From Candidatus Goldiibacteriota bacterium (lineage in GTDB: Bacteria; Oederibacteriota; PGYV01): a DNA stretch of 34,453 bases. The stretch's first letter is position 1. Each line of letters begins with the position of its first letter. The position numbers and the translations under genes were made by a program. The DNA is taken from positions 1 through 34,453 of the forward strand of contig JAFGWA010000046.1 in assembly GCA_016937715.1 (NCBI GenBank). The letters run 5' to 3'. This document shows, in pieces, positions 2,876 to 24,882 of this stretch. Under the pieces are notes generated by a model. It did no database searches. It was not told the DNA's origin and saw nothing but the letters and a program-made list of their open reading frames with translations.

Positions 2876-2904
2876 TTATGACAAAACATACCCAAAAAAG
2901 TTCC
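2876..2904 (-). promoter_or_regulatory. ECF-sigma-type promoter upstream of first GH8 gene
   Basis: On the minus strand GGAACTT (2898-2904), a 15-bp spacer and GTCATAA (2876-2882) match the RpoE-like ECF layout (GGAACTT, N15-16, GTCTAA). Predicted transcription starts near 2869, leaving a leader of about 54 nt before the ATG at 2815. The same layout, with a similar spacer, occurs upstream of the anti-sigma gene (9525-9553). An ECF sigma gene lies at 9689-10273. Assignment to that sigma factor is inference. Confidence 0.62.
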
Positions 2905-3068
2905 GCTCTTTTTTCGTTACAATATAATATATTTATTATTAAAGTATCTGCCATTTTATTCAAAAGAACCCTTTATGTCAATGTTTTTTTAAGACAAATA
3001 AACAGCCAAAACAATGTGTTTTTTTGTACATTTTTTTAAAACTACCAAAAAACCTGCATTTACAAGCT

Positions 3069-3100
3069 AAAAAAATGACCCGGTTTTACCCGGGCCATTT
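3069..3100 (-). terminator. Rho-independent terminator of second GH8 gene
   Basis: On the minus strand a 10-bp stem (arms 3090-3099 and 3074-3083, one G-T wobble) with a 6-nt loop is followed by seven T (3069-3075). It starts about 20 bases after the stop of the second GH8 gene, so the first GH8 gene must have its own promoter. Confidence 0.85.
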
Positions 3101-3117
3101 TGAAACCTTTAAAAGTT

Positions 3118-6100
3118 TTACTTTGATTTGGACTTAAGTATTATTATCTTATCCACTTTTGACCTTACTTCTTTGCCGTCCCTGGTTACCATTATCACGT
3201 AATAATACGTTCCATTGGACAGATTTTTTAACGTTTCTGACTGGTAATATACGCAGTCGCCGCTTAATATCTGTGTAAGCGCCGCGCCTTCAAATACTTT
3301 TTCGTCAATTAACCTCTGGGCCGAAGAGTATATCCTTACACTTAAGCTTTCAACATCCTTCTGGGTTACTTTTACCTTTATTCTTAATATAGGCTGTACA
3401 GCCGGGTCAAAAGGGTTAGGATATGGAAGAAGTTCGGTTACTTCAAGCACCTTGCTTGTGGCAGTAGGCGTCGGTGTGTATGTGAATGTTGATGTATGCG
3501 TCGGTGTATTTGTATACGTATGCGTATTGGTTGCCGTAAAAGTATTTGTATTGGTTGCCGTGAAAGTCGCGGCTGACGCCATATCAAACACCCTTACAGT
3601 GCTGGAAGCTTCTTTCATCTGCCCCAGTATTGTATTCATTACGGTTACCTTTATTGTGTAATTACCGTCCGGCATACCCGTTAAACCGGAAGTTGGAACG
3701 TTAATGGTATGGCTTCCCGGCGTCCTTAAGGTATTGTCTGTTACAAAAGTGTAAACAGAAAGGGACGAAGCGTCAATAAGTTCTATCCTTGTTGATGTCG
3801 CATTCTGCCCTGTCAGATTAAAGCTTACCGCTATCGTGGCAACAGCAGGCATTACAATAGTACCCGTTGAAGGCATTAAAGTAACCGCGCTTACGCCAAG
3901 CGTGGGTGTAGGAGTCTGTGTCTGCGTGTATGTGTTTGTAGCAGTATTTGTTGAAGTGTTTGTAAAGGTGTTTGTATATGTATTTGTAAAAGTCTGCGTG
4001 GGCGTATTTGTAACTGTATGTGTATGAGTGTCAGTAGACAACGGATCCGGAGTATTAGTCTCCGTGAATGTATATGTCTGCGTGAACGTGTTGGTATTAG
4101 TGTGTGTCTCTGTGGGAGTACTTGTGTATGTAGGCGTATTAATAACCGGCGGTGTCGGGCATGTTGTGCAGCCATAGATTATTATATCATCTATCCACAG
4201 TTCCGCGGTTGTCGTTCCTTCAAGCGCTGTGGCGTTAAAACTTGTCTGGAACTGTATTTCTTTCGCGTTTGCAAGCACTTCAGCTATGGGATAAGCCGTC
4301 CCCCATCCTGTTGCCTGAGCCAATAATGTAAACGGAACATCCACAAGCGTCCAGGCTGCGTCCGCGGTAAAGTCATAGCGGTAATCATTGTATCCTGTCA
4401 GGCTTGTTCCATCAGCGGCAGAGTAAGGAACCTTAATATGGTACGCCTTTCCGTCGCCTTTAGCGTAAAATTTAACACCTGTGCATCCTGAAATATCTGT
4501 TACTTCACCAGAACCTTCAGGAGGCGCTCCCGCCATAGGATTTAACTGCGAACCCATTCCTATTGAAGGATAATCATTGTTAGCCCCGTCAACCGGGCCT
4601 ACTGTCCCGTTAAAACTTGCCGCCATTAGCGAACCGTTGTATCCGCCCGCTGTCATTGTAAAGTCCGTGCCTCCTGCCGTGGCAGGTACAGGTACTATTG
4701 TTGCGCCGGTACCGTCCTGGTATGTGTACCAGTATCCGCCAAACAGGTTTGCGTTATCCCCGTCTTCGCCGTTTTCCATTAAACATCCGCCGCCGTCAAC
4801 TGTTGGCGTAGGTGTTGACGTGTTTTCGGCCGTATGCGTTTGTGTGGCTGTATTTGTGTATGTGTAAGTGTTTGTATTTGTACTTGTATTTGAAGCGGTA
4901 TAAGTATATGTATGCGTTGCCTGCGTGGTATCAGTTTCTGTAGGCGTATTTTCCTGTGTTTCAGTGTCTGTAAATGTCGCTGTGGGAGTATCAGTTGCAG
5001 TATCTGTTTGTGTTGCGGTATCGGTATTTGTTTCTGTCGGAGTATTTGTAAATGTATCCGTAGATGTACTTGTACACGTAGGAACTTCCGTGGGTACAGG
5101 CAGAATGCCTGTAAACGTATTGTTTGTTTCATCAAGTTCCGCGATAACATCATCTGAATCTATCATAATAGACACGGACGCAGATGGAACATACTGTATC
5201 CAGACTGAACCGCTTGAACTTGCCGTAATTCCCGAAACAGGTATTTCATTTCCATCAATATCAATTGTAAACGCGCCCGCGTCCTGGTCTCCCTGGTTTG
5301 CGTAATTAATACGTACACCAAGCGGGTATATTCCTGTCCCTATAATACATTCCGGTACAGTCTCGCTTGTGATTGAAGCGGATAATATTACAAGGTCCGA
5401 GCCTCCTGCGATAGGCGTATTTGTCTCTGTAGCGGTGTTTGTCGCGGTATGAGTGTTTGTTGATGTATTTGTTTCCGTAGGTGTATTTGTAAATGTCTGT
5501 GTTGCTGTATCAGTGGCTGTGTCTGTATTCGTCGCCGTGTATGTGTTTGTTGCAGTGTCCGTGCTTGTCGCGGTTTCTGTAGGCGTATTTGTCGCCGTAT
5601 CGGTGGCCGTGTAAGTAAAAGTATGCGTATCTGTACCGGTATTTGTGGCTGTCTGCGTGTAAGTTTCTGTTGCTGTATCCGTATGGGTATGCGTCGAGGT
5701 ATTGGTTGCGGTATCAGTTGAAGTATTTGTCTCAGTTGGTGTATTTGTAAATGTATTTGTAACCGTATCAGTCGGCGTATTGCTTGACGTGTATGTCTGT
5801 GTGTGTGTAAATGTACTTGAAGCTGTCGACGTATTTGTGCGCGTAGGCGTGTAATTCTGGCTTGGGAACATTTCCAGCTGGTCAACGGCTAAATCTATAC
5901 TTGACCACGGCTGCCCAACCGTCTGGAAATGTATTGCCATAAGGTTTGTTTTTATTGTCGTAAGCGGCACAACCGTACCCCAGTATTGTTCCTGCGTAAA
6001 TTCAGTAAACGCTATCTGATACTGTTTCCACGAACCGTCTGAAGGCGGCGTGAAATTAAACTTCCAGTCATTGCTGCCTGTATCTATTGAATCAATCGGA

Positions 6101-8352
6101 ACAAGCTTTATGGTGTACGGAAGCCCGTCGCCTTTTGCCCAGAACCTTATTCCGATAAACGGCGTACAGTTACGCGCGCCGCCTGTTGACATAAGGTTTG
6201 TCCCCATACCCACAAAACCATTGGCATAAACATCTGTTACCGTTCCGGTCATACGCGCGCTGTAAGCAGTTGACGCGGCGCCGGCGTTATCCATTGCCCA
6301 GATTCCGCCGGGTTCCGGAACCACAACGCTTGTACCCGCGTTTGGCGAATCGTCATAAGTAAACCAGTCGCCGCCCCAGTTATTTACACCGTCAGCGTCT
6401 TCACAGTCATCAAGAAGTTCTGACGCCCCAAAGGTGGCTGTAATTGTGGGTGTAAAAGTAAAAGTGGCCGTAGGTACAGGAGTGGGTTCCCATAGATAAG
6501 GGAATAATTCCACTTTATCAAGCGAGAAATCAATTGCCGCCACGGCGCTATTAGTGCCTACCTGCCATTTTATTTCCTGCATCACGGGAAGAATTTCTGT
6601 TTCAAGGTCATATAAATTTGATGTCCATGCAGGCTGAGTAAACTGTCCAAAAGGTATTGAAATCTGTGTCCATGTGGTGGGCGGAATAAATTCATATTCA
6701 TGTGAAGCCCAGTCAATATAAACAGTGGTACCCGACCCTTTAGGCCCAAGCATAATTTTCCACGGGGTTACTCCGTCGCCTTTACACCAGAACCTTATAC
6801 CGCCGCCATCACCCGCAGTTGTATTTGTTATCCAGAAATCAGTTAAATCAACGATATCCTGGCCCGCGGGCTGAGTCTTAATTTCTTCTTTTAGCTCCGT
6901 GCCTATTCCTACCGAAGGATAGTTAGGATCTACAGCAGCAGCTTTAGAACCGGTAATACGCAGATAGAAATCGCTTTCCGCGTCTGCGCCGCCGGCTGTC
7001 ATTGTTAAATGCTCGCCTTCTGCCGGCGATACAGTAGCTCCCAGCCCTTTGGCATCCGCCCATGTATACCAGTAACCGCCCCAGTCATTGGCGGTATTAT
7101 AATCGGGCAGATAATCATCAAAATAATCAATAACCTGTCCGTCAGGCACAGGAGTCGGTGTTTTAGGAGGTTCCGGGCTCATTATTCTATAGTTAGGCAT
7201 ATTGCCCGACATAAACAACATTGTAAGAACCTGAAGCGCGCCGTTATAATAAGACTCTGTCGCGCTGAAACTTGAAGTCCTGCTGTAAAAATTATTAAGA
7301 TTTGTCTGGTCTGTTGTCACCATAAAAGCGCAGCCCGCAGGCCCTACAAAAGCGGCGTTATTATTATAACCGTAAGACGTGCCGTTCTGATAGTAGTATC
7401 CGTCAACAACGCCGGTAGGCCCTTTGCCCGCAAAGAAATTGGCCAGTTTGGTTGTATATGTATCAGCCGCAGCTGTCCCATACCACGCGTAATCCATAGC
7501 CGTTCTAAACGGCACACGGCAGGAGTTATAATCATACTTTCTTCCGTCAACTCCGTTTTTATCATAATCAATCGAAGATCCTGTTGTAGTTATAATTTCG
7601 CCTATAAGTCCGGTTGTGGAATTTGCCGCTGAATTTATCATTGTAAAACATTTATTTGCAATGGTTGTCCACTTGGTATCGCCGTCAACAGTCTGGAATT
7701 CCCTGATAAAAGCGGTAATAAAATACGAAGGGAAAGTATGGTCATCCCACTGGTCACCAGGTTTTAAATGGTTATCAAGCGCCACATCATAACTTTTTAT
7801 GTTTGCAATTTCAGTCTGTGCCTGCGAAATATATGTCCTGCCTATGCTTCCGCTTCCTCCCCACTGTTTGTCCGCCATTAAAAACGCGAATGCTATATCA
7901 ATGTCAGCGTCTGTGGCTGAACCCTGATCAATAATATTTCCGCTGCCGTCTATAATCCACGGAAGAAGCGAACCCGGCTTTCCCGTTGCCGCTTCACCCC
8001 TGTTTATCTTAAACTTTGCAATACCGTCAAATGTTGCCTGGTCATCCATATATACAGATGCAAGCATTCCATATGCTATACCTTCAGATACCGTATATCC
8101 GCCGCCATAACCGGGAACAGGTTCCGGACTGACAACTTTCAAACACCCGCTGCAGACAGAAGAGTTCTGCACATACGTGGCTTTCCATGTGTCATATTTG
8201 CCCTGGATAGTGGACGAACTGGAATTGGTGGCCCTTATGCCGTATGGATAATTTGCTTCCTGAGGAAAAGGATAGTTACCCGCAAATGAATAAGCCGCAA
8301 ATAACAGCAGAATAAATAAAGATAGGTAAATCGTTTTACCGTTTTTGTGCAT
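3118..8352 (-). CDS. Secreted multidomain GH8 glycoside hydrolase with C-terminal FlgD/T9SS-like domain
   Basis: The product has 1744 residues. I prefer ATG 8352 over the in-frame ATG 8367: it has a GGGGTG ribosome site, and the hydrophobic signal peptide (1-24, ending YSFA) follows at once. The order is: GH8 domain about 30-390 (VSEGIAYGM with acid Glu90; ATDADIDIAFAFLMA signature with one substitution; YNSCR with Asn276 at the GH8a base position); CIA30/CBM-like modules about 408-620 and 645-824; Thr/Asn linker 832-982; CARDB-like domain 985-1080; linker; third CBM-like module 1189-1397; linker; Ig-like domain about 1486-1588; linker; C-terminal domain from about 1640 with YPNPFDP and an IRIKVKV-like strand pattern, as in T9SS/FlgD-type domains. 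The protein is probably exported and surface-attached or released, acting on a beta-1,4-linked polysaccharide. It has its own promoter and terminator. Confidence 0.92.
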   Translation of the reverse strand: MHKNGKTIYLSLFILLLFAAYSFAGNYPFPQEANYPYGIRATNSSSSTIQGKYDTWKATYVQNSSVCSGCLKVVSPEPVPGYGGGYTVSEGIAYGMLASVYMDDQATFDGIAKFKINRGEAATGKPGSLLPWIIDGSGNIIDQGSATDADIDIAFAFLMADKQWGGSGSIGRTYISQAQTEIANIKSYDVALDNHLKPGDQWDDHTFPSYFITAFIREFQTVDGDTKWTTIANKCFTMINSAANSTTGLIGEIITTTGSSIDYDKNGVDGRKYDYNSCRVPFRTAMDYAWYGTAAADTYTTKLANFFAGKGPTGVVDGYYYQNGTSYGYNNNAAFVGPAGCAFMVTTDQTNLNNFYSRTSSFSATESYYNGALQVLTMLFMSGNMPNYRIMSPEPPKTPTPVPDGQVIDYFDDYLPDYNTANDWGGYWYTWADAKGLGATVSPAEGEHLTMTAGGADAESDFYLRITGSKAAAVDPNYPSVGIGTELKEEIKTQPAGQDIVDLTDFWITNTTAGDGGGIRFWCKGDGVTPWKIMLGPKGSGTTVYIDWASHEYEFIPPTTWTQISIPFGQFTQPAWTSNLYDLETEILPVMQEIKWQVGTNSAVAAIDFSLDKVELFPYLWEPTPVPTATFTFTPTITATFGASELLDDCEDADGVNNWGGDWFTYDDSPNAGTSVVVPEPGGIWAMDNAGAASTAYSARMTGTVTDVYANGFVGMGTNLMSTGGARNCTPFIGIRFWAKGDGLPYTIKLVPIDSIDTGSNDWKFNFTPPSDGSWKQYQIAFTEFTQEQYWGTVVPLTTIKTNLMAIHFQTVGQPWSSIDLAVDQLEMFPSQNYTPTRTNTSTASSTFTHTQTYTSSNTPTDTVTNTFTNTPTETNTSTDTATNTSTHTHTDTATETYTQTATNTGTDTHTFTYTATDTATNTPTETATSTDTATNTYTATNTDTATDTATQTFTNTPTETNTSTNTHTATNTATETNTPIAGGSDLVILSASITSETVPECIIGTGIYPLGVRINYANQGDQDAGAFTIDIDGNEIPVSGITASSSGSVWIQYVPSASVSIMIDSDDVIAELDETNNTFTGILPVPTEVPTCTSTSTDTFTNTPTETNTDTATQTDTATDTPTATFTDTETQENTPTETDTTQATHTYTYTASNTSTNTNTYTYTNTATQTHTAENTSTPTPTVDGGGCLMENGEDGDNANLFGGYWYTYQDGTGATIVPVPATAGGTDFTMTAGGYNGSLMAASFNGTVGPVDGANNDYPSIGMGSQLNPMAGAPPEGSGEVTDISGCTGVKFYAKGDGKAYHIKVPYSAADGTSLTGYNDYRYDFTADAAWTLVDVPFTLLAQATGWGTAYPIAEVLANAKEIQFQTSFNATALEGTTTAELWIDDIIIYGCTTCPTPPVINTPTYTSTPTETHTNTNTFTQTYTFTETNTPDPLSTDTHTHTVTNTPTQTFTNTYTNTFTNTSTNTATNTYTQTQTPTPTLGVSAVTLMPSTGTIVMPAVATIAVSFNLTGQNATSTRIELIDASSLSVYTFVTDNTLRTPGSHTINVPTSGLTGMPDGNYTIKVTVMNTILGQMKEASSTVRVFDMASAATFTATNTNTFTATNTHTYTNTPTHTSTFTYTPTPTATSKVLEVTELLPYPNPFDPAVQPILRIKVKVTQKDVESLSVRIYSSAQRLIDEKVFEGAALTQILSGDCVYYQSETLKNLSNGTYYYVIMVTRDGKEVRSKVDKIIILKSKSK
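4161..4786 (-). repeat. Module-coding repeat, copy in second GH8 gene
   Basis: This is the partner of 190-815. The reading frame keeps the two cysteines of the terminal CTTC motif and the CLMENGEDGDN start, so it is a duplicated or gene-converted domain inside otherwise divergent proteins. Confidence 0.85.
5410..5855 (-). repeat. Low-complexity DNA encoding (Thr-x)n linker
   Basis: About 150 residues are built almost only from Thr alternating with Asn, Ala, Asp, Glu, Pro, Ser, Tyr, Phe or His. Similar stretches are at 4800-5085, 3900-4140 and 3450-3570. They separate folded domains and explain the many spurious Val-rich frames on the plus strand. Confidence 0.9.
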
Positions 8353-8413
8353 AAATACACCCCGCATCTTATATTAGGCAATAATAAAAATATATGCCCT
8401 ATGATAATAAATT

Positions 8414-8442
8414 ATTTTACCCGTAATTCCCCGTTCTGTCAA
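8414..8442 (-). promoter_or_regulatory. Sigma-70-type promoter of second GH8 gene
   Basis: On the minus strand TTGACA (8437-8442), exactly 17 bp, then TAAAAT (8414-8419). It lies between the anti-sigma terminator and the ATG at 8352, giving a leader of about 55 nt. No ECF-type site is visible here, unlike the first GH8 gene. Confidence 0.75.
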
Positions 8443-8487
8443 TTAGAACATTGAACCGTATTGCGAATATGCTGTTTTTATTTCAAA

Positions 8488-8532
8488 TTAAAAAACCCTA
8501 TTCAAACCGGTTTTAGCGGTTTAAAAAGGGTT
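8488..8532 (-). terminator. Rho-independent terminator after anti-sigma gene
   Basis: On the minus strand a 16-bp stem (8517-8532 with 8494-8509; one mismatch, one wobble) with a 7-nt loop is followed by a T-run (8490-8495). It lies about 20 bases after the anti-sigma stop codon and separates the regulator block from the second GH8 gene. Confidence 0.87.
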
Positions 8533-8552
8533 GGCGTCGCAAAATGCGTCGT

Positions 8553-9503
8553 TTAATTCTTGGAAATTATGATATTCTTTTTAATAACCCGTCTGCCAAT
8601 CTGTATATAAACAAAGTATATACCTTCACGCACAATTTCACTGTTATCGTTTTTGCCATACCACAGTATCTGATAAGCGCCCGGCGCTTTGTCTTCATCC
8701 ACAAGTTTTGCCACTTCCCTGACAGCTTTATCATATATAACAATCTTTACCCTTGAGGTTTCATCCACTTTTATCTTTATCGCGGCTGCCTGTCCAAGGT
8801 TGGGGTTAATAAGGTTATTTGCTATAATTGCTTTTTCATCATCAAGTAATGGCGTAGAGGGCGTGGGTTCAACTACCGGATCTTTAGCCGCCTGAACCCC
8901 TGTTGAAAGCGAAGGTTTTGATATATTGTTCACCAAAGGAGCAGCCTGATTTACGGCTTCTTTTTTAGGAGCCGGCCTGTATTCATATACAAGGACTTTC
9001 TTTTCATATTTTTCGGCTGTTTTTTCAATTACAGCTTCTTTTACAGTCTCTTTTACCGCTGCTGTCTGAACGGTTTCTTTCTTTATGTCTGTTTTTACCA
9101 CAGTTGTGTTTGCCGCTTTATTAGCATCTATAATAGAAGGGTTGAATGAGGCCATTTCAACCTTGTGCTGTTTGTCACTGATGTTATTATATATAAGGAA
9201 GGTAGCCGCAAAAACCACTGCCGCAAAAGACGCGCCAACCCTTAGAAAATGGGCAAAAACAGGTTTTTTATCCATGTTTTGTGATTCAATTGCAGCCATT
9301 ACTCTTGTTTCAATGAAATCAGGCGCATCAATCTTAATACTTTTGGAGGCATTTATGATAACTTTCATGGTTTCCATATATTTGCGGCAATCGCCGCATT
9401 CAGATAAATGTGAAGACATAACAGCCATATTCTGCGCGTTTAAGCCGCCATCCAGGCTTTCTGTTATAAGTTCTTTCATTTTATTACATTTGGTATCTTT
9501 CAT
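8553..9503 (-). CDS. Transmembrane zf-HC2 anti-sigma factor with FlgD/T9SS-like C-terminal domain
   Basis: The product has 316 residues from ATG 9503. A TTG-start reading from 9533 is unlikely because 9533 lies inside the predicted promoter. Residues 1-50 hold an anti-sigma zinc finger (H32-LSE-C36-GD-C39). One membrane segment follows at about 86-106. A Lys/Pro/Ala-rich region without clear fold comes next, then a final domain of about 85 residues containing INPN, IKIKV, VKIVIYDK and GIYFVYIQIG strands. This last part resembles the C-terminal domain of the second GH8 enzyme and FlgD-type Ig-like domains. By family it holds the ECF sigma factor at the inner membrane and releases it on a periplasmic signal. 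The gene lies downstream of the sigma gene, separated by 185 bp carrying two repeats and an ECF-type promoter. Confidence 0.85.
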   Translation of the reverse strand: MKDTKCNKMKELITESLDGGLNAQNMAVMSSHLSECGDCRKYMETMKVIINASKSIKIDAPDFIETRVMAAIESQNMDKKPVFAHFLRVGASFAAVVFAATFLIYNNISDKQHKVEMASFNPSIIDANKAANTTVVKTDIKKETVQTAAVKETVKEAVIEKTAEKYEKKVLVYEYRPAPKKEAVNQAAPLVNNISKPSLSTGVQAAKDPVVEPTPSTPLLDDEKAIIANNLINPNLGQAAAIKIKVDETSRVKIVIYDKAVREVAKLVDEDKAPGAYQILWYGKNDNSEIVREGIYFVYIQIGRRVIKKNIIISKN

Positions 9504-9524
9504 CTTCTTCACCGTCCTTGTATA

Positions 9525-9553
9525 TATTGACAACCCATACTAAAAAAAGTTTC
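9525..9553 (-). promoter_or_regulatory. ECF-sigma-type promoter of anti-sigma gene
   Basis: On the minus strand GAAACTT (9547-9553), a 15-bp spacer and GTCAATA (9525-9531). The distance from AAC to GTC is 17 bp, exactly as in the promoter of the first GH8 gene, and both spacers begin T-rich and contain GTATG. The start of transcription would be near 9518, consistent with translation from ATG 9503. Confidence 0.6.
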
Positions 9554-9561
9554 GTACTATT

Positions 9562-9609
9562 TTATACTTTGACGCGAATTTGTTCTATGCGGCAACGTAT
9601 AAAATAGTA
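9562..9609. repeat. 48-bp intergenic repeat, copy 1 (with 13-bp inverted arms)
   Basis: It is identical over 48 bp to 9634-9681. Around this copy the arms TACTATTTTATAC (9555-9567) and GTATAAAATAGTA (9597-9609) are perfect reverse complements flanking 29 bases, so the DNA or RNA can form a stem-loop. It ends right next to the anti-sigma ECF-type promoter. Confidence 0.95.
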
Positions 9610-9633
9610 TGCAAATGCATATTCCTTAAAACC

Positions 9634-9681
9634 TTATACTTTGACGCGAATTTGTTCTATGCGGCAACGTATAAAATAGTA
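9634..9681. repeat. 48-bp intergenic repeat, copy 2
   Basis: This is an exact copy of 9562-9609, 72 bp away in the same orientation. Its left arm is incomplete (only TTATAC is retained). It begins a few bases after the ECF sigma stop codon. Confidence 0.95.
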
Positions 9682-9688
9682 CATTCCC

Positions 9689-10273
9689 TTAAAGTATTTT
9701 ATCCTTCTCAAGTTTTTCTCTTAAATTTTCCCTTGCCCGAAAAAGTTTGCTTTTTACCGCGGATACAGACAGTTTAAGCAGTTTTCCCACTTCTTCATAT
9801 GACAGCCCGTCAACATCCCTTAATATAATTACCTGCCTTTGTTCTTCTGTCAGTTCACCTATTCTGTTGAAGACAGCAGTCCTTACTTCATTGGACGCAT
9901 ACTGATTATCCGGTTCGTTCTCTTCTTTCTCTTTAATATTATTTACAAGGGTGTTTGTTTCCTCTTCATCATTGCCTGTGTAAGACTCTTCTGCCATGCG
10001 CGATTTTAGCCGCTGCATCTGTTTTAACCTGTTCTTGCAGGAATTGATTGTTATCCTGTAAATCCATGTGCCAAGTTTTGAATCACCGCGGAATTTTTTC
10101 AGGTTTTTATAAACATTAACAAAAATTTCCTGACAGACATCTTCGGCGTCCTGCCTGTTTCTTAAAAAACTGAAACAATGTCCAAAGACCACGCCTTTGT
10201 ACTGTTTTATTATCTCTGAAAAAAGGGCTGTTTCCCCCTTTTTTATCCTTTTTATTATCTCCGATTCTTCCAT
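9689..10273 (-). CDS. ECF (RpoE-like) RNA polymerase sigma factor
   Basis: The product has 194 residues. Region 2 spans about 10-85, with DAEDVCQEIFVNVYK (42-56) and the promoter-melting GTWIYRITINSCKNRLK stretch. A charged Glu/Asn-rich linker (95-128) follows, then region 4 at about 135-190 (LTEEQRQVIILRDVDGLSYE, then an HTH ending KSKLFRAREN). The ATG is 21 bp after the second PorV-like gene; GGGAG is present but about 14 bases away, so translation may be weak or coupled. By family it directs polymerase to GGAAC/GTC promoters. Two such sites are visible in the window, before the first GH8 gene and before the adjacent anti-sigma gene. Its control by that anti-sigma factor is inferred from adjacency. 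Confidence 0.95.
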   Translation of the reverse strand: MEESEIIKRIKKGETALFSEIIKQYKGVVFGHCFSFLRNRQDAEDVCQEIFVNVYKNLKKFRGDSKLGTWIYRITINSCKNRLKQMQRLKSRMAEESYTGNDEEETNTLVNNIKEKEENEPDNQYASNEVRTAVFNRIGELTEEQRQVIILRDVDGLSYEEVGKLLKLSVSAVKSKLFRARENLREKLEKDKIL

Positions 10274-10294: not shown

Positions 10295-11203
10295 TTAAAA
10301 CTTAAACGTTATGGTAAACCTGTGCGCGTTGTCCGCCACAAAGTAAGGCTGATACGCGTAATCAATTGATGCCTGCCCGTAAACCACGCCCGCGCCTATC
10401 GCCACTCTTCCTTCCTGCCTTCCAAATACATAGCCTATCCTGCCGGTAAAAAAATCCCGATAAGTGACTTCCAGCCCAAGCGAAGTTTCAGCGCCTTCAT
10501 TTTCCACCAGAAAAATCCTTTCTTCAGCAAGTATTTGTATCACATCGCCTTCGTTTCTATAAACGTATATGCCGTATCCGCCCCTGAAAAGCATCGGAAA
10601 CATGGCTTTCTCTTTGGTATACGAAGAATTAATCCCGATATTTTCAAGAGAAGCGCCAATCAGGTACTTTTGTTCAAAATTTTTATGCAGCACTCCCGCG
10701 TTTAAAACCGCTCCAAAATTACCGCTTCTGTGTATCTTTGAAAATGCAAATTTCACGTTAATACCCGCGTTTAAATCTTTCATCATTTCCCTCGCGTATG
10801 AACACGCGCCGGTGATGTCATAATTTTCTATCCTTTCAACTTCATAGCCTTCTTCATTGGTTCGGTAAAGTTCCGGATTGGTGTCATACATAAGAGAAAC
10901 AGAAATGCTGTCTTTTATTCCAATCGGCTGAGCGTATATAAACTGCTCGTAATTCGTCCCAAAAACAGAGGTAAAATGGGAAAACACCGCGGATTTTTCC
11001 TGTATGCCCTGAAGTACCGCGGGATTGGCGTTAGAAGCCGAAGGCCTTGCAAAACTTGGGGCATATATGCCTCCCAGGCCGGCTTCCCTTGCGCTTATAT
11101 CAACAAGCAGAAAATCGCCTGCGGTTGTGCCTGAAGAAAAAACAGGCGCCGTGCAGATAAAAAACATTAAAAAAAGCGCGGCGCATTTATTTATTTGTCT
11201 CAT
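10295..11203 (-). CDS. PorV/PorQ (UPF0164)-like outer-membrane protein
   Basis: The product has 302 residues. A signal peptide ends around residue 24 (APVFSSG). The mature part starts with the family pattern GDFLLVDISAREAGLGG and the ANPAVL motif, then alternating amphipathic strands, and ends in Phe (TITFKF) as beta-barrel proteins do. The length fits the PorV/PorQ family. PorV is the outer-membrane shuttle that receives cargo carrying a type-9 C-terminal domain; whether this protein does so is inference, supported by the FlgD/T9SS-like C-terminal domain of the GH8 enzyme nearby. It follows the LacI gene by 12 bp and precedes the sigma gene by 21 bp, so all three are probably cotranscribed. 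Confidence 0.85.
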   Translation of the reverse strand: MRQINKCAALFLMFFICTAPVFSSGTTAGDFLLVDISAREAGLGGIYAPSFARPSASNANPAVLQGIQEKSAVFSHFTSVFGTNYEQFIYAQPIGIKDSISVSLMYDTNPELYRTNEEGYEVERIENYDITGACSYAREMMKDLNAGINVKFAFSKIHRSGNFGAVLNAGVLHKNFEQKYLIGASLENIGINSSYTKEKAMFPMLFRGGYGIYVYRNEGDVIQILAEERIFLVENEGAETSLGLEVTYRDFFTGRIGYVFGRQEGRVAIGAGVVYGQASIDYAYQPYFVADNAHRFTITFKF

Positions 11204-11215
11204 TTTGGATGGTTT

Positions 11216-12211
11216 TCAGACAGAATCTCTGATAATTAATTCCGGTTCAAAACTTATTATTTTACTTTCCATAGGCGCGCTGCCTTCTATCATATCGGTC
11301 AGCAGGTCAAACGCCTGCATCCCCATCTGCGCTATGGGCTGCCTTACCGTGGTTAATCCCGGGCTGGTAAGGTTTGAAAGATATACATCATCATACCCAA
11401 TTATTGAAAGGTCCTGCGGTATTTTTATACCGGCTTTTTTAGCCGCGTCCATCACACCGATTGCCGTTATGTCCCCCGCGCTGCAGAAAACCGCGTCCAC
11501 TCCGCCGCTTTTTTTCATAAGGTTTTTCAGCAGGGTTTCGCCTTCTTCAAAAGTGTAATCAACAACATCTATAACTTTTTTTTCATCAAAAGGAATCCCG
11601 TAATATTCAAGCGCGTCCTTGTATCCCTTAAACCTTTCTTCGGCATTTAATACCTTGGATCCTTTTATAATAGCTATCTTTTTTCTTTTTTTCTTTATCA
11701 GGTATTCCGTTGCCATAAACGCGCCCTTGATATTATTAAATTTTACCGTCGGCGCGCCTTTTACTATTTCTTCAATAAACACAACAGGCAGCCCCTCTTT
11801 TTCAAATTCCGCCACAAGTTCGTCATCAGGCTTTAAACTGATGATTATGAATCCGTCAGCCCTTCTTTCATAAAAAACCCGCCTTAAAACATCCCTTTCG
11901 TTTTCTTCCACACCCCTTGTTGAATATAAAATAAGATTGTACGCCGTTTTTCTTAAATTATTCTCAATTCCCCTTACGGATTCCAGCGCGAAAAGCGACG
12001 CAAAGAAAGAAGCCACAACCGCAATATTGTTTGTCTTTCCTTTTACAAGGCTTCTTCCTATATAATTGGGGTGGTAATTCATCTCTTTAATAGACTGCAT
12101 TACAAGGTCTTTTGTTTTCTGGCTTATCTTGGGGCTGTTATTAATTACCATGGATACCGTTGCCGGCGTTACTCCGACTTTCTTTGCTATATCTTTTATC
12201 GTTACCCTCAT
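11216..12211 (-). CDS. LacI-family transcriptional regulator
   Basis: The product has 331 residues. The N-terminal HTH is TIKDIAKKVGVTPATVSMVI (4-23), followed by the hinge region around RSLVKGKT and a periplasmic-binding-protein-like sugar-sensing domain (about 60-331) with typical GYDDVYLSNLTSPGLTTVRQ (near 278). The length and pattern are normal for the family. It usually represses sugar-use genes and is released by a sugar ligand. It sits between two PorV-like genes (13-bp and 12-bp gaps) and upstream of the ECF sigma gene, so sugar sensing and the sigma switch are probably linked. The effector is unknown. Confidence 0.95.
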   Translation of the reverse strand: MRVTIKDIAKKVGVTPATVSMVINNSPKISQKTKDLVMQSIKEMNYHPNYIGRSLVKGKTNNIAVVASFFASLFALESVRGIENNLRKTAYNLILYSTRGVEENERDVLRRVFYERRADGFIIISLKPDDELVAEFEKEGLPVVFIEEIVKGAPTVKFNNIKGAFMATEYLIKKKRKKIAIIKGSKVLNAEERFKGYKDALEYYGIPFDEKKVIDVVDYTFEEGETLLKNLMKKSGGVDAVFCSAGDITAIGVMDAAKKAGIKIPQDLSIIGYDDVYLSNLTSPGLTTVRQPIAQMGMQAFDLLTDMIEGSAPMESKIISFEPELIIRDSV

Positions 12212-12224
12212 TTGTCCCCGCCTT

Positions 12225-13559
12225 TTATCTGGAATTCTGCGTGCTTCCCTGTCCGTTTAATATTTTCTCCGTCTTATACCTGTTTATAAACTCCCGCAGT
12301 TTGTCATTTTCAGGGTTTAACTGCAGCGCTTTCTCATACGCTTTCATCGCGGTATCCGTTTTTCCCGTATTTAAAAAACACGACCCCACTCCTATGTAAG
12401 CGGAAGTATATGTATCGTCCCGTTTTAAACACGCCGTGAATTCAGCCAGCGCTTCCTGATATTTTTTCGCGTATAAGAGGTCATAGCCGCTTCTGTAATA
12501 CTCCGCAGCAGTCTTTTTATCCTGCATTTTTCTTGTTTCCGGTTCGCCCAGGAATTTTCCGGTTAATGATATCCTGTGGGTTATACCAAGGTCTCCGTAT
12601 GGATTCAGCGAATAGTCAATTTCTATGCTGCTTTTTTCTCCGGCAGTCAGTTTATATCCAAGCCCCGCAGTGATTCCGGCGGAAAAACCAAGGTCATTTA
12701 AAAATTTATACCCCGCCCTTACGCCCACGCTGTGATACTTGTTAAGCACCCACATTTTTTCAACGCCCGCGTTAAAACGCACTATCTGTTCCGTGGGATA
12801 AATGACCACGTCAAGGCCCGCGGCCGCCGAATTATCCGGAAAGATAAACGCGCCTTCATCAGTAAACGGAAGTATCATGTTTTCAAAGGCAAAACGGTAG
12901 CCAAACCCAAGCCTTACCGCAAGCGGCAATGACGGCCTGTTATTGGAAAAGCCGACATTTTCAACTGCCATCCCAAAAGAATAATTTTCATACTTGGGAT
13001 TAAACAACGTGCTTAAATTTAAGCCGTAACCGCCGCCGGCGTCGCCGGCCACGTCTTCACTTGAAATATTAACGCTTAAACCCGCGGAAAAATCAGAGAA
13101 AACAGAATCTTTGCCAAAAAAAGCCGAAAGTTTTCTTCCGTAAGCAAGCGTAATATTAAAATTGGTGGCACCCACTTTTTCTTCTGTTAAAATATAATTC
13201 CCGCCGGCATCTTCTTCTGTTTTTAAAATTTCACCGGCATTCAGGTAAACACCGTATATCCCTATCGTGCCAAGTTCGCCAAGCGGAAAAGCATAAGCGG
13301 CGTATTCAAAGTTTACGTCAAGCATCCATACCGCGTGCATAAGGCACGCCTGATGCCGCGTAAGCTGAGACAGCCCCGCGGGATTCCAGAAAACAGCGTT
13401 TACGTCATCGGCAATGCCGGTAAAAGCCTCGCCCATCCCCGCCTGACGCGCTCCCTGTGATATTTTTATAAAGTTCAGGCCCGTGCTTCCAGCGCCTACC
13501 GCAAAAATAGAACCGGTGCAGAATAAAAGTAAAAATGACAAAATTATACTTTTTTTCAC
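12225..13559 (-). CDS. PorV-family outer-membrane protein with C-terminal TPRs
   Basis: The product has 444 residues from GTG 13559, preceded by GAGGGTG. A signal peptide occupies residues 1-20. The barrel portion (about 22-340) has the PorV/UPF0164 hallmarks ISQGARQAGMGEAFTGIADD and NAVFWNPAGLSQ and many glycine-rich amphipathic strands. Residues about 350-430 are two or three TPR units (AAEYYRSGYDLLYAKKYQEA; NPENDKLREF). The TPR tail would face the periplasm and could bind partner proteins. It is the first gene of the regulator block, with a good sigma-70-type promoter 28-56 bp upstream. Confidence 0.87.
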   Translation of the reverse strand: MKKSIILSFLLLFCTGSIFAVGAGSTGLNFIKISQGARQAGMGEAFTGIADDVNAVFWNPAGLSQLTRHQACLMHAVWMLDVNFEYAAYAFPLGELGTIGIYGVYLNAGEILKTEEDAGGNYILTEEKVGATNFNITLAYGRKLSAFFGKDSVFSDFSAGLSVNISSEDVAGDAGGGYGLNLSTLFNPKYENYSFGMAVENVGFSNNRPSLPLAVRLGFGYRFAFENMILPFTDEGAFIFPDNSAAAGLDVVIYPTEQIVRFNAGVEKMWVLNKYHSVGVRAGYKFLNDLGFSAGITAGLGYKLTAGEKSSIEIDYSLNPYGDLGITHRISLTGKFLGEPETRKMQDKKTAAEYYRSGYDLLYAKKYQEALAEFTACLKRDDTYTSAYIGVGSCFLNTGKTDTAMKAYEKALQLNPENDKLREFINRYKTEKILNGQGSTQNSR

Positions 13560-19341: not shown

Positions 19342-22300
19342 TTATCTGCCTTTTTTTATTTTCCTTATTCCGTACCTTGTTATCTTTCCGCTTTCACTGC
19401 CTTTTGACGATATCTGATAAAGATAGATGCCGTCTTCATTGCCGGCCGTATCCCACACTGTTGAATTATATATCTTGCCTTTTTTATTCTCTTCAAGGGT
19501 GGATAAAATTTTGCCCGTTTCATTATATACCTTTATGGTGACAGCCCCGTCTTCGGGGATATAATAGCTGAAAGTCATTTTTCCCGTGGTCTCTTCGTAG
19601 TAAGCGAAGATTTCAGTGGATATGTTTATCACTTTTTCCGGCTCGTCCTGATTCAATTCAACATCGTATATCATCTGAGGCGGAAGGTTCTTTGTAAGCA
19701 CCTTCACCTTTGCTTTACCCACGCTTAGATTATCCACTTCAAAATTACCCTCTTTGTCGGAAATTCCTATTCCCATTGTGGCGCCGTCTTCTTTCATAAC
19801 TTCCACGGTCGCGCCGGGAAGCGGCATAATACCGTTTGAATGCGTGACCACGCCTTTTAATTTTACCTTTGTTTTAATCTTTATTTTAAAATGGCACGCG
19901 GTCTTTCCTGTCACGCTTTCCCTGTCAATTGACAGAATGTGAAAATACCATATACCGTCAGACAGCTCCGGATAGGCTATATGCGTGTCCATGGTTTTAT
20001 TATTCTTTGGCGTGGGTATCGTGTTTTCTGAATTATCAAGAACGTAATAATAGCCCACTATGTCATTTACATACTGAGCGGCTTTCCACTGCAGTTTCAC
20101 CGATTTGTCCCTGTACCACTTATCCTGTTCGGGATGGGTGGAAGAAAAAACAGAAGGCGGCGGCGGCGTCATTGCCACGTTCACCTGAAAATGCGAAGCT
20201 TCTTCCGAAATATTGCCTGCTGTGTCTTTGGCCGTCACATGCAGGTACCAAATACCGTCCGGCACGTCAACAAACGAAGCCATTGTGCCTTTTGTCCACG
20301 ATGAAGTGGACGGCTGCGGCATGGTATTTTTAATCTGATTAAAAACGTAGTAATAGCCGTCAATACCCGCCTGGTCAGGCGGAACTGTCCAGCTGAACGA
20401 AGGCGAATTGCCGTTGTACCAGCCGTTAAAATCCGGATGCGTAATTGAAGATACAACCGGAGGTTTTGGCTTTGTGGTATCCACGTTTATGGTGTAATGC
20501 GAAGCCTCTTCGGAAATATTGCCCGCTTCATCTTTGGACACAATGTGAAAATACCATGTACCGTCAGAAACATTGTTAAAATCAATTTCGTTATCGGTAA
20601 ACCACGTGCCGTTCTTTTCACCCGGCAACGTGGTTCCGGTCTGGTCAAATATATAATAGTATCCTGTTATTCTTGTGGCATCCTGCGGCGTGTCCCATGT
20701 AAGTTTTACGTTTTTAACATTGTACCAGTCGCCCTGCATCGGGTGCGTAAGCGAACGCACCACCGGAGGCATTGCGGCGCGGTCACAGATGGCAAGCACC
20801 TGCTTGTTTCCGCTTTCACGTTCATTTCCTATTTTATCCACAGGCCTTACGGTATAATAATAAATTATTCCGTCTTCTATGTCTTTGGACGCGTCAATAA
20901 ATTTTGTGTCCGTATTTTCGCCGTCATCATTTATCTGCATGCCCGCGTGGCCGGAAACAGAAGACCTGTAAATTCTGTAATACGCAAGGCCGCTGACAGA
21001 ATCCGAACACTTGTTCCATTCAAGGTGTATCTCGCCGCCTTTTTGAGGCTTGGCAACCAGCTGGGTAACAGGCGTGGGCGGAGTTATGTCAACAGTTACG
21101 CTGGCTTTTTCCGGTTCCATAAACTGCGACCAGTTGCCGGCATTGTCCTTTGCCCTTACCCTGAAAAAATACCTTATTCCGTCACTTCCGGAAAATTTTG
21201 CCTGTTTGTCTTTTGTATCATTAAGCCAAGGCTTCCACTTTCCTTTTTCGCCTTCCCTGAATTCCGCGTCATAACACGCCACGCCCGATTCTTTATCCTG
21301 CGCGTCCCATGATACGTCAAATTTTTCCGTATTAATAAATTCCGGCAGTTCCGTTATCATTACTTCCGGAGGCGTTATTTCTATCATAAATTTTAAATGC
21401 GTGGCCTCTGTGCCTATATTGCCGGACGCGTCTTTTGTAAGGATATGAAAATACCATTCGCCGTCTTCCAGCCTGTCCGGAACTTTAATGGTGCCGTCCT
21501 GTACAAACCTGGAATTCTTGCGGTCAGGAACAGTATCAGGATTTCTGTCTATAATATAGTAGTAGCCGTCAACACCCGACATGTCGTTTATTTTTTCAAC
21601 AGCAAACACCGGGCTTATGTTGGAATAATATTTTTCCGGGTTCACGTGCGTTGTGGAAATTATTTTTGGCGGTTCCGCCACAAGGTCAATTTTCACGGTA
21701 AAGACCGCCGGATCTTCGCCTATATTGCCGGCATTGTCCTCGCCCACTATGTGAAAATAATACGTGCCTTCATCTTCCACGTTTAATTCCGCTTCACGCA
21801 TGTCTGTTTTCACGGCGTGCTCCGGCGATATTTTAAGGTGCCTTTCTTTGGAGAACAGATAATAAAACGCCTTTATCTTTGAAAGGTCCTGCGGGACTGT
21901 CCAGCTTATTTTTACCTTTCCCGAATTGTACCACTTGCTTTCATCGGGGTGTGTGGAAGAACTTATCCTTGGCTGTTCCACCTTTGTATCTATCTTCAGC
22001 TTATAATGAAACGCTTCCCAGCCCGTGTTGCCGGCATTGTCCTTTGAAATAATATGAAAATACCAGATACCGTCTTCCGGGGGCTGAATGGTAACCTGAT
22101 TAGCCGTAGTCCATTCGCAGTTTTCCTTTACCGGCACTGTGTTATGTTTTTTATCAACCGTATAAAAATACCCTTCTATGCCGGACAGGTCTTCCGGCGT
22201 ATCCCAGTGAAGTTCCGGTATGGAATTGTTATACCACTGCTCCTGGTCCGGGTGCGTCCGCGAATAAACAGCCGGCGGCTTTGCCGCGGTGTCAATATTT

Positions 22301-24882
22301 ACGCGGTAGTGCGACGCCATCTGCCCGGAATTGCCCGCCTTGTCGCGCGCTGTTACGTGCAGGTACCATTCGCCGTCTTTTAAGTCGGACGAGAAAATAG
22401 TATCCTTGTCCGTCCACGCGGCCGTCGCGTCCGGCGTATTTTTTTCTTTTGTATCAATCAGGTAATAATACCCTTCTATGCCGGACAAATCTTCCGGCGG
22501 CATTATTTTAAACTGCGCTTTTTTAAGGTTGTACCACTTGTGCGAGTCAGGGTGTGTTACCGATGAAATGTTCGGAGGCAGCGCCTGCGTGTCTATCTTG
22601 AATTTAAAGTGCGCGGTCTCCGCGGAAATATTTCCCGCAAAGTCTTTTGACCGCAAATGAACATACCACGTACCGTCAGTTTTTGCGGGCAGTTCTATGT
22701 CGCTGGCTTTTGTGTAAACCCAGTCGGTGTCTGAAGGTTTTGTGTCCGGTTTCTGGTCCACAGTGTAATAAAAACCTTCAATGCCCGATAAATCCTGCGG
22801 CCTTGCTATATGAAGTTCAACCTTTGATTTGTTGTACCACGACTCTTCGTCGGGATGCGTGCGTGATGATACGGCCGGTATTAATGCCGTGGTATCAACG
22901 CAGAATTTATAATGCGCCGCCTTTGTGCCCACATTGCCCGCGGCGTCTTTGGAAACCACGTGTATGTATTTTACGCCGTCTTCTATGGGCTGTGACTTAA
23001 CCGTTGCAGCCATTGTAAAGGTGCCGTTCTTATCGCCGGGCACGGTTCCGGGAAGGTCGTCAATTATGTAGTAATACCCTTCAATACCCGACAGGTCCTG
23101 CGGTTTCTCCCATGTAAAAACCGGAGTATTATTGGAGTACCAGACATCGCTTTTTTTGTGCGTCGGCGAGGATATAACCGGCGGCAGCGCCTGCGTGTCT
23201 ATCTTTACGCAGAAGTGCGACGCCGTACTGCTTATGTTTCCGGCTTTATCTTCTATCCTTAAATGCAGATACCACACGCCGTCATCAAGATTTTTTATGT
23301 TTACGGATTCGTTAACCGTGACCGAACACCGCGAAGGCTCCGGAATTGTATCCGGTTCCTGGTCTATCATATAAAGGTAATGTTTTATGTCAAGGTGCTG
23401 GCCCCATTTGAATTCAGCTTCGCTTTTTTTGTACCAGTTTTCCTGCAAGGGATGAGAGCCGGATTCAATTACAGGGGTCACAGCCGCTGCCGTGGTAAGC
23501 GTGTAATCATCAATGATTCCGGAAAAACTTCCCATGTCAGAATATGTAAGAATCCTGAAATGGTATTTTGTCATGGCGCGCAGGTTATTTAAAGTTATCC
23601 GGTGTTCCGCCGTCATAGTTTCATTAATTATATTATTGCCGTAGTTTTCATCTATGCCGTATTCTATTATCGTCTGCGCTTCCCTGTCCGTACGCCAGTT
23701 AATAGCCGCGCTGTGGGAAGTTATTTCAGATACATTAATATCAAGCGCGCGCGGCGGCGGGGTATTGCTGACCGTCGTCTTAAAAATCCTGCCCTTGGGC
23801 GAAGAACCAAAATACAGATACCCGTTAAACATTGTAAGCGAACGCACATCTTCTTCGTCCGTCTGAAAAGCCAGTTCCCATCTTTTACCGTCAAGCGATT
23901 TATATATTCTTCCGTTGTCGCCGCTTCCCACGTATAAGTTATTTGAAAAAGAGGCAAAGCCGTAAAAGTTAACGTCTTTTTCAGAAAAGAAATTTTCCAC
24001 CCAGTTGGTGCCGTCTTCCGTCATGAAAATAAGCCCGCCGGTGGCCTTTGATGTGGAAGCATAAAGCCTGTTTTTGAAGACATAAAAACCATTTACAAAA
24101 GACTGGTTTGTGTCGTAAATTTTCTGCCAGTTAATGCCGTCCGCGGTCCTGTATATTACACCGTTTGGATATGTTCCCGCGTATAAATAATCCCTGTATA
24201 TCCCGAAAGCCGTAACGGCAAGTTCAGTGGTGTTTATGGAAATCACCCAGTGGGTGCCGTTGTAGCTGTATATTTTGCCTTCCGTGGAAGTGCCGGCAAA
24301 AAGTTTGCCCTTGAAAACTTCCATGCAGTGTATCCTTGCTTCCTGGCTGTTAAAAGACAGGCTCCACGTCTTTCCGTCAAGGCTTTCATAAATGCCGCCG
24401 CTGGCGTTGGTGCCGCAGAAAAGTTTTGGCGTACCAAGGTCATTATAAGTTTTTAAACAGTAAACCTGCGGCGTGTAATCCCCAAGGTCTTCTTTTTCAA
24501 AACTTTTTGTCTGCCCGACAGGGCCGTTAAAATAAGGCGAATAAATATTGGCAACAGTTATACTTTCCCATGAACCGGTGTCGCCTGTGGAAGTCCTTAT
24601 TACCGTATCTTTGTTGGTGGCGGCGTAAAGATGCCCGTTAAATTCCTCAAAATCATATATTATCGGAATGATCTCGTTTTCATAAACGGGAATAAACGAT
24701 TCCTTGGGAACATAACGAAGATAAAGCGGAATAGCCGCTTTTAAGTTCTTTATGACTTCGCCGGAATTGGCGCCGCCGGCCACAAGGCCCGGCAGTTCCC
24801 GGCACTCGCCTATGAACCTGCCTTCTTCTTCTCTGATAACTATTTCAAAATTTACCGACAGTTCCTTTTTTTTGTCTTTCAA
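19342..24882 (-). CDS. Giant repeat protein: HicB-like domain, beta-propeller, Fn3, ten Ig-like modules, FlgD-like C terminus
   Basis: The product has 1846 residues from TTG 24882, overlapping the acetyltransferase stop by 4 bp. Residues about 8-60 match the HicB/UPF0150 antitoxin-like fold (EGRFIGECRELPGLVAGG). Residues 65-372 are six or seven propeller blades (LYAATN, LFAGTS, LYAGTY, LYVGSG, YLYFGSS with a DG-W motif). An Fn3 domain is at about 378-470. Seven modules of about 100 residues run from 475 to 1170, two Fn3-like units follow, then three more modules to 1671. Each module has a THP-W-Y opening, SGIEGYYY in the middle and WYFHI-KDNAGN near its end. A carboxypeptidase-regulatory-like domain (1674-1750) and an FlgD-like domain (1761-1846) close it. 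The C-terminal half looks extracellular, yet there is no signal peptide. Adhesion or display is a guess. Confidence 0.85.
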   Translation of the reverse strand: MKDKKKELSVNFEIVIREEEGRFIGECRELPGLVAGGANSGEVIKNLKAAIPLYLRYVPKESFIPVYENEIIPIIYDFEEFNGHLYAATNKDTVIRTSTGDTGSWESITVANIYSPYFNGPVGQTKSFEKEDLGDYTPQVYCLKTYNDLGTPKLFCGTNASGGIYESLDGKTWSLSFNSQEARIHCMEVFKGKLFAGTSTEGKIYSYNGTHWVISINTTELAVTAFGIYRDYLYAGTYPNGVIYRTADGINWQKIYDTNQSFVNGFYVFKNRLYASTSKATGGLIFMTEDGTNWVENFFSEKDVNFYGFASFSNNLYVGSGDNGRIYKSLDGKRWELAFQTDEEDVRSLTMFNGYLYFGSSPKGRIFKTTVSNTPPPRALDINVSEITSHSAAINWRTDREAQTIIEYGIDENYGNNIINETMTAEHRITLNNLRAMTKYHFRILTYSDMGSFSGIIDDYTLTTAAAVTPVIESGSHPLQENWYKKSEAEFKWGQHLDIKHYLYMIDQEPDTIPEPSRCSVTVNESVNIKNLDDGVWYLHLRIEDKAGNISSTASHFCVKIDTQALPPVISSPTHKKSDVWYSNNTPVFTWEKPQDLSGIEGYYYIIDDLPGTVPGDKNGTFTMAATVKSQPIEDGVKYIHVVSKDAAGNVGTKAAHYKFCVDTTALIPAVSSRTHPDEESWYNKSKVELHIARPQDLSGIEGFYYTVDQKPDTKPSDTDWVYTKASDIELPAKTDGTWYVHLRSKDFAGNISAETAHFKFKIDTQALPPNISSVTHPDSHKWYNLKKAQFKIMPPEDLSGIEGYYYLIDTKEKNTPDATAAWTDKDTIFSSDLKDGEWYLHVTARDKAGNSGQMASHYRVNIDTAAKPPAVYSRTHPDQEQWYNNSIPELHWDTPEDLSGIEGYFYTVDKKHNTVPVKENCEWTTANQVTIQPPEDGIWYFHIISKDNAGNTGWEAFHYKLKIDTKVEQPRISSSTHPDESKWYNSGKVKISWTVPQDLSKIKAFYYLFSKERHLKISPEHAVKTDMREAELNVEDEGTYYFHIVGEDNAGNIGEDPAVFTVKIDLVAEPPKIISTTHVNPEKYYSNISPVFAVEKINDMSGVDGYYYIIDRNPDTVPDRKNSRFVQDGTIKVPDRLEDGEWYFHILTKDASGNIGTEATHLKFMIEITPPEVMITELPEFINTEKFDVSWDAQDKESGVACYDAEFREGEKGKWKPWLNDTKDKQAKFSGSDGIRYFFRVRAKDNAGNWSQFMEPEKASVTVDITPPTPVTQLVAKPQKGGEIHLEWNKCSDSVSGLAYYRIYRSSVSGHAGMQINDDGENTDTKFIDASKDIEDGIIYYYTVRPVDKIGNERESGNKQVLAICDRAAMPPVVRSLTHPMQGDWYNVKNVKLTWDTPQDATRITGYYYIFDQTGTTLPGEKNGTWFTDNEIDFNNVSDGTWYFHIVSKDEAGNISEEASHYTINVDTTKPKPPVVSSITHPDFNGWYNGNSPSFSWTVPPDQAGIDGYYYVFNQIKNTMPQPSTSSWTKGTMASFVDVPDGIWYLHVTAKDTAGNISEEASHFQVNVAMTPPPPSVFSSTHPEQDKWYRDKSVKLQWKAAQYVNDIVGYYYVLDNSENTIPTPKNNKTMDTHIAYPELSDGIWYFHILSIDRESVTGKTACHFKIKIKTKVKLKGVVTHSNGIMPLPGATVEVMKEDGATMGIGISDKEGNFEVDNLSVGKAKVKVLTKNLPPQMIYDVELNQDEPEKVINISTEIFAYYEETTGKMTFSYYIPEDGAVTIKVYNETGKILSTLEENKKGKIYNSTVWDTAGNEDGIYLYQISSKGSESGKITRYGIRKIKKGR

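Follow-up and report, generated by a model that had tools for sequence, protein, structure and literature searches.

The sigma factor locus and its two promoter sites

We analysed a stretch of 34,453 nucleotides from a Candidatus Goldiibacteriota bacterium (the window), which is the whole of contig C46 of its genome (G000; 2.59 Mb, 124 contigs, 96% complete) and carries the genes of an extracytoplasmic function (ECF) sigma factor, an anti-sigma factor and two secreted enzymes of glycoside hydrolase family 8 (GH8). Since the window spans the entire contig, the GH8 gene at positions 2-2815 is truncated by the contig end. All genomes compared were metagenome-assembled and the whole analysis was sequence-based; relatives are cited by their G numbers where needed. 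An earlier reading of the window from its letters alone (the sequence-only reading) had named the anti-sigma gene and both GH8 genes, and searches with family models bore this out, recovering a zf-HC2 anti-sigma factor, an ECF sigma factor and two GH8 proteins (Table 1). The sigma factor belongs to the ECF group (group IV), as it consists of regions 2 and 4 only (Sigma70_r2 at residues 22-88 and Sigma70_r4_2 at residues 136-184 of 194) and scored 112.6 bits with TIGR02937 (cut-off 42.9).

The sequence-only reading had also described two matching ECF-type promoter sites with similar T-rich spacers. Both were read on the minus strand as described: GGAAC-TTTTTTGGGTATGTTTT-GTC-ATAA at 2904-2876, before the truncated GH8 gene, and GAAAC-TTTTTTTAGTATGGGTT-GTC-AATA at 9553-9525, before the anti-sigma gene, each with exactly 17 bp to GTC and a T-rich spacer after the -35 element. 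The joint pattern GRAACTTTTTN11TGTC (at most 1 mismatch) matched twice in the window versus 0.06 expected from shuffles, and no shuffle reached two. GTATG, present in both spacers, falls in spacer columns that are poorly conserved across 64 sites and was discarded as part of the motif. GAAAC-17-GTC was conserved at all orthologous sigma loci, matching the AAC-containing -35 and GTC/CGTC-like -10 elements typical of ECF promoters.

Table 1. Positions of genes and regulatory features in the window
Feature	Position	Strand	Details
Secreted GH8 enzyme, ECF target, truncated by contig end	2..2815	-	Pfam PF01270, 120 bits
ECF-type promoter (putative) of truncated GH8 gene	2876..2904	-	-35 GGAAC 2904-2900, 17-bp spacer, -10 GTC 2882-2880
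Sigma-70-like promoter, upstream of ECF site of truncated GH8 gene	2953..2981	-	TTGACA-17-TAAAAT
Secreted GH8 enzyme, 1744 aa, adjoining anti-sigma gene	3118..8352	-	ATG at 8352; Pfam PF01270, 142 bits
Sigma-70-like promoter of 1744-aa GH8 gene	8414..8442	-	TTGACA-17-TAAAAT
Terminator-like hairpin with T run, between anti-sigma and 1744-aa GH8 genes	8494..8532	-	Fold -18 kcal/mol, z -3.5
Anti-sigma factor	8553..9503	-	zf-HC2, one transmembrane segment, linker, FlgD-Ig-like C-terminal domain (residues 216-316)
ECF-type promoter (putative) of anti-sigma gene	9525..9553	-	-35 GAAAC 9553-9549, 17-bp spacer, -10 GTC 9531-9529; orthologous site in 12/12 relatives with sigma gene
Palindromic element, two identical 48-bp copies, between sigma gene and anti-sigma promoter	9555..9682	-
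ECF sigma factor, 194 aa, regions 2 and 4	9689..10273	-	Pfam PF04542 and PF08281
PorV/PorQ-family outer-membrane protein, directly upstream of sigma gene	10295..11203	-	NF033709, 118 bits (cut-off 90)

The motif is distributed with the sigma gene and precedes genes of secreted enzymes

Of the 13 other order members examined, 12 had a close ortholog of the window's sigma gene (59-97% identity). In all 13 order genomes with a sigma ortholog, the window's genome included, the anti-sigma site was located after the stop codon of the sigma gene and before the start of the anti-sigma gene. Across 11 order-level genomes the exact pattern matched 48 times versus 2 for a reversed control pattern. The sole order member without a sigma ortholog (G006) had 1 exact match, within a reading frame, and 26 same-phylum genomes without a close ortholog gave 8 matches versus 5 for the control, near background. 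Since genomes with the ortholog were enriched and those without it stood near background, the motif travels with the window's sigma gene. The refuting outcome named in the sequence-only reading, with matches before genes no commoner than chance, was thus not observed: exact matches exceeded the control across the order, and the sites preceded genes of secreted proteins.

GH8, GH9, GH5 and GH18 enzymes predominated among the products of genes behind exact sites, which also included a polysaccharide deacetylase and surface proteins with DUF11 or a type IX secretion system (T9SS) tail. ECF sites before GH8, GH9, GH5, GH18 or polysaccharide-deacetylase genes were also found in other genera, and exact sites before GH8 genes occurred in G001, G003, G005, G010, G012 and G013. 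A profile (R1) built from 49 sites was used to search the window's genome, where it gave nine sites with E at most 0.1. Each of the nine preceded either the anti-sigma gene or a gene whose product begins with a signal-like or lipoprotein-like segment: besides the anti-sigma gene, the GH8 gene, a GH9 gene on C116, a GH9 gene at C81:20173 (with malectin and CelD_N domains), a gene for GH5 plus malectin at C81:24348, genes for a GH8-like/DUF11 protein (C86) and a 1171-aa protein (C14), and two lipoprotein-like genes. Members from the window had been used in training and are not ranked independently; C81:20173, C86, C5, C109 and C14 lay outside the training set. The regulon, at first taken to be local, would be genome-wide, since at least nine sites were counted in the window's genome.

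A proposed regulon for polysaccharide-degrading enzymes weighed against its alternatives

The order-wide counts and the secreted targets support the proposal that the two sites are ECF-type promoters of one sigma regulon, which would include the anti-sigma gene and the secreted GH8 enzyme. We consider it very probable that an ECF sigma regulon for polysaccharide-degrading enzymes that act outside the cell is shared across the order, and that the window holds its control locus. In this reading, the sigma factor would be made from an operon of the PorV-like and sigma genes, and the zinc-finger anti-sigma factor, encoded downstream, would hold it at the inner membrane until an extracytoplasmic cue acts on the conserved FlgD-Ig-like outer domain. 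Free sigma factor would recognise CGRAACTTTTT-N11-TGTC, a site found computationally together with its co-distribution with the sigma gene, and would activate the genes of secreted GH8, GH9 and GH5 enzymes and of further surface proteins; at its own locus it would activate only the anti-sigma gene. Judged by the architecture, induction of the anti-sigma factor would then damp the response, and at the ECF-controlled GH8 gene, with its basal sigma-70-like promoter upstream, the ECF promoter would serve as a booster. With a promoter code, a sigma factor and an inhibitor, the proposed system would give an uncultured lineage a regulon for cellulose-degrading enzymes that is specific enough to test.

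Several points weigh against this reading or qualify the results in its favour. When 1 mismatch was allowed, raw counts in the window's genome equalled those of the reversed control (17 versus 19), and therefore only exact, profile or conservation-filtered matches were interpreted. In favour of the regulon, secretion signals were found for 29 of the 33 genes behind exact sites versus 39 of 135 background genes (p=5e-10), but the test drew its background from neighbouring genes and used a crude signal-peptide predictor. Also in its favour, 27 of the 29 sites before anti-sigma or enzyme genes had C as the base preceding GRAAC, which none of the 11 sites of lipoprotein, serpin, HtpX-like or paralogous sigma genes had (p=3e-8), but these classes were assigned only after the sites had been seen. 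Moreover, the GH8 site in the window's genus has GGAAC, the -35 element also found upstream of a paralogous sigma gene, and partial cross-recognition of the GH8 site by that paralog is possible.

A first alternative is that the GH8 site is read by the paralogous sigma factor, so that the two sites of the window belong to different regulons. The paralog (G000:C5:48837-49385, L114) is 36% identical to the window's sigma factor and has GGAAC-18-TGTC immediately before its ATG; its relative in G008 has a GGAAC-17-TGTC site. Because the paralog has this site of its own, a second, overlapping regulon probably exists under it, with lipoproteins, serpins and an HtpX-like protein as members and A or T before the motif. 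The GH8 site resembles the paralog's in its GGAAC and differs there from the GAAAC of the anti-sigma site, but it carries the preceding C of the anti-sigma and enzyme class. Moreover, GH8 genes in G003, G005, G012 and G013 have GAAAC sites, and the GH8 locus lies 7 kb from the sigma gene in the window and about 6 kb from it in G003 and G010. Given the preceding C and these GAAAC sites, the GH8 site would most likely belong to the regulon of the window's sigma factor, and we regard its assignment to the paralog as unlikely. Among the serpins, L038 and L140 (in G001 and G010) are lipoproteins that match the Serpin family over its full length (368 bits) and have the motif upstream.

That the regulon is instead an RpoE/SigW-like general response to envelope stress, with the enzymes as only one part, is similarly improbable. 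RpoE- and SigW-like models did match the window's sigma factor, with scores under the cut-offs, and the HtpX-like membrane protein and serpins are among the genes with motif sites. However, the HtpX-like, serpin and lipoprotein sites are of the class without C, the class with C consists mostly of polysaccharide-degrading enzymes and surface proteins, and no gene identified as a target encodes a chaperone or a Bam, Lpt or phage-shock protein. That both sites are chance T-rich matches devoid of promoter function can practically be dismissed, since the one-mismatch counts that would suit it are outweighed by the exact-match excess, the positional conservation and the enrichment before secreted proteins.

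Gene order and predicted negative feedback

The ECF promoter sat 3' of the sigma gene in 13 of 13 genomes, where it would drive only the anti-sigma gene and whatever follows in the transcript. An ECF-like site before the PorV-sigma unit was absent from 11 of the 12 relatives examined; only G002 had one, which was weak and overlapped the end of the upstream reading frame. Positive autoregulation, typical of ECF sigma factors though not obligatory, was thus not indicated at the window's locus. The feedback suggested in the sequence-only reading can be refined: because the promoter lies downstream of the sigma gene and would raise the anti-sigma factor only, the architecture predicts purely negative feedback.

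The gene directly before the sigma gene held the same position in 12 of 12 relatives, and its product was confirmed as a PorV/PorQ-family protein in the 10 tested (NF033709, 99-123 bits). The window's member scored 118.3 bits with this model and 45.7 bits with that of the true T9SS PorV equivalog (NF033710), far below its cut-off of 250. A second PorV/PorQ-family protein, fused to TPR repeats, is encoded at 12225-13559 in the same gene row as a LacI-family regulator (11216-12211).

Predicted basal and inducible GH8 promoters

The second GH8 gene had been assigned a sigma-70-type promoter, and TTGACA-17-TAAAAT was indeed found before its ATG. The truncated GH8 gene, however, has the same element at 2981-2953, upstream of its ECF site, which the sequence-only reading had overlooked. 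Each of the 7 GH8 genes with an ECF promoter of this type had such a box (at most 1 mismatch to TTGACA-17-TATAAT) farther upstream than the ECF site. In addition, the counterpart of the neighbouring GH8 gene directly follows the anti-sigma gene in G004 and G009 and has its own ECF site in G007. The proposal of one constitutive and one induced enzyme, right about a sigma-70-type promoter at one gene and an ECF site at the other, is therefore too simple, and the contrast should rather be put as basal plus inducible versus basal here. The differing arrangements in G004, G009 and G007 indicate that the predicted GH8 wiring shifts between lineages. In G001, G003, G004, G007, G009, G010, G012 and G013, a GH8 gene was located downstream of the sigma gene at a distance of no more than about 2.5 kb.

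A third type of GH8 protein (L170-L174, L178) starts with ...DTCNxPFPQ...YPYGxxPNNYTQ; in most of the six genomes its gene has GRAAC-17-GTC upstream, lacking the full T tract.

The anti-sigma factor and its outer domain

The anti-sigma factor is of class I (zinc-finger): zf-HC2 matched at 23.9 bits (cut-off 22.2), and H32, C36 and C39 of the Hx3Cx2C motif were invariant in 12 sequences. A hydrophobic segment was read at residues 86-108, and by topology the C-terminal region would be periplasmic. Conservation is highest in the last 100 residues, where column identity averages 70%, against 46% over the entire protein. In the window's protein this C-terminal part scored below the cut-offs of the T9SS sorting-tail model TIGR04183 (13.5 versus 23) and FlgD_ig (24.9 versus 27), and the G007 ortholog scored above them (25.5 with TIGR04183, 30.3 with FlgD_ig, and 27.2 with CHU_C). 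The domain also matched FlgD chains in the PDB (3osv, E=1.7e-4). When this domain was compared directly by profile with the tail of the GH8 protein and another tail of the window, no match was significant, so its homology rests on the family models and the FlgD chains. AlphaFold models of the whole protein and of the C-terminal domain alone had confidence scores (pLDDT) of 35 and 44, too low to use.

The window's genome encodes many T9SS-type C-terminal tails, one of them (C116:4180-4470) inside the reading frame of the GH9 target, and a SprA-like protein of 2092 aa with a multi-stretch match below cut-off; the PorU model was matched by C-terminal tails alone. A 1846-aa protein with OmpL47-like repeats (19342-24882) ends in a T9SS type A sorting tail. 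A speculative proposal, to which we give a low probability, is that the anti-sigma factor senses export: its periplasmic FlgD-Ig/T9SS-tail-like domain would mimic the sorting tail of surface enzymes and be bound by the PorV-like protein, so that export traffic or blockage sets sigma activity. The PorV-like neighbour, the tail-like domain, the SprA-like protein and the precedent of PorA, PorV and SigP in Porphyromonas gingivalis make this proposal reasonable as a hypothesis. If true, it would couple synthesis of secreted enzymes to secretion capacity through cargo mimicry. The fixed trio of PorV-like protein, sigma factor and anti-sigma factor with a sorting-tail-like sensor suggests such a link between enzyme synthesis and surface export; neither the link nor an anti-sigma factor with a sorting-tail-like domain was described in the literature searched, most subscription papers lying outside the reach of that search.

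Comparison with known systems

By domain architecture, GTC-type -10 element and Hx3Cx2C motif, the window's pair resembles RpoE/SigW-type ECF sigma factors with class I zinc-finger anti-sigma factors (PMC7406223, PMC8103513). The -35 elements of Escherichia coli RpoE (GGAACTT) and Bacillus subtilis SigW (TGAAAC) likewise contain AAC (PMC7406223, PMC8103513). ECF sigma factors are usually positively autoregulated and co-transcribed with their anti-sigma factor (PMC8103513), whereas here the ECF promoter lies between the two genes and would drive the anti-sigma gene only. On these sequence features, we classify the two as an ECF/class I anti-sigma pair in which the sensor domain and the neighbouring gene are unusual.

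The SigI/RsgI systems that regulate the cellulosome of Clostridium thermocellum (PMC4711584) also combine an alternative sigma factor with a membrane anti-sigma factor, have promoters before sigma genes and before genes of secreted plant-cell-wall-degrading enzymes, show autoregulation, and include paralogous sigma factors with overlapping regulons. They differ in that SigI promoters have an A-rich -35 (CNNAAA), a CGWA -10 and 13-14 bp spacing (PMC4711584). The window's system has GRAAC-17-GTC with a TGTC rather than a CGWA -10, and a two-domain ECF sigma factor; Pfam gave only zf-HC2 and FlgD_ig on its anti-sigma factor, and no RsgI-type N-terminus, with the FlgD-Ig-like domain in place of a carbohydrate-binding module. 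Since promoter and anti-sigma factor differ, the system would work like SigI/RsgI of cellulolytic clostridia but is not a member of it.

In P. gingivalis, PorA has a C-terminal domain (CTD) that binds PorV and provides input to the ECF factor SigP (PMC7712824). The PorXY-SigP system thus also ties an ECF sigma factor to PorV, the T9SS and a T9SS-CTD protein (PMC7712824, PMC4800418). SigP, however, works through a two-component system and controls genes of T9SS components, whereas in the window the CTD-like domain belongs to a classical anti-sigma factor, and surface enzymes make up most of the targets found.

Other elements near the promoters

The two 48-bp palindromic copies at 9555-9682, between the sigma stop and the anti-sigma promoter, are identical, lie 72 bp apart and form a strong hairpin. 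The palindrome occurred nowhere else in G000; G002 had one related palindrome at the same spot, and G001 gave no match. A dispersed mobile element was ruled out, as the repeat was present only at this spot in G000 and G002, and the pair is possibly an element of mRNA processing or attenuation.

Inverted repeats were also seen between the promoter region and the Shine-Dalgarno region of L064, L043 and L066, for example CCGCTAAAACTT/AAGTTTTAGCGG and CTCCTTTGGTTT/AAACCAAAGGAG. The repeat CCGCTAAAACTT/AAGTTTTAGCGG covaries between G000 and G001, and these repeats may possibly control the ribosome-binding site.

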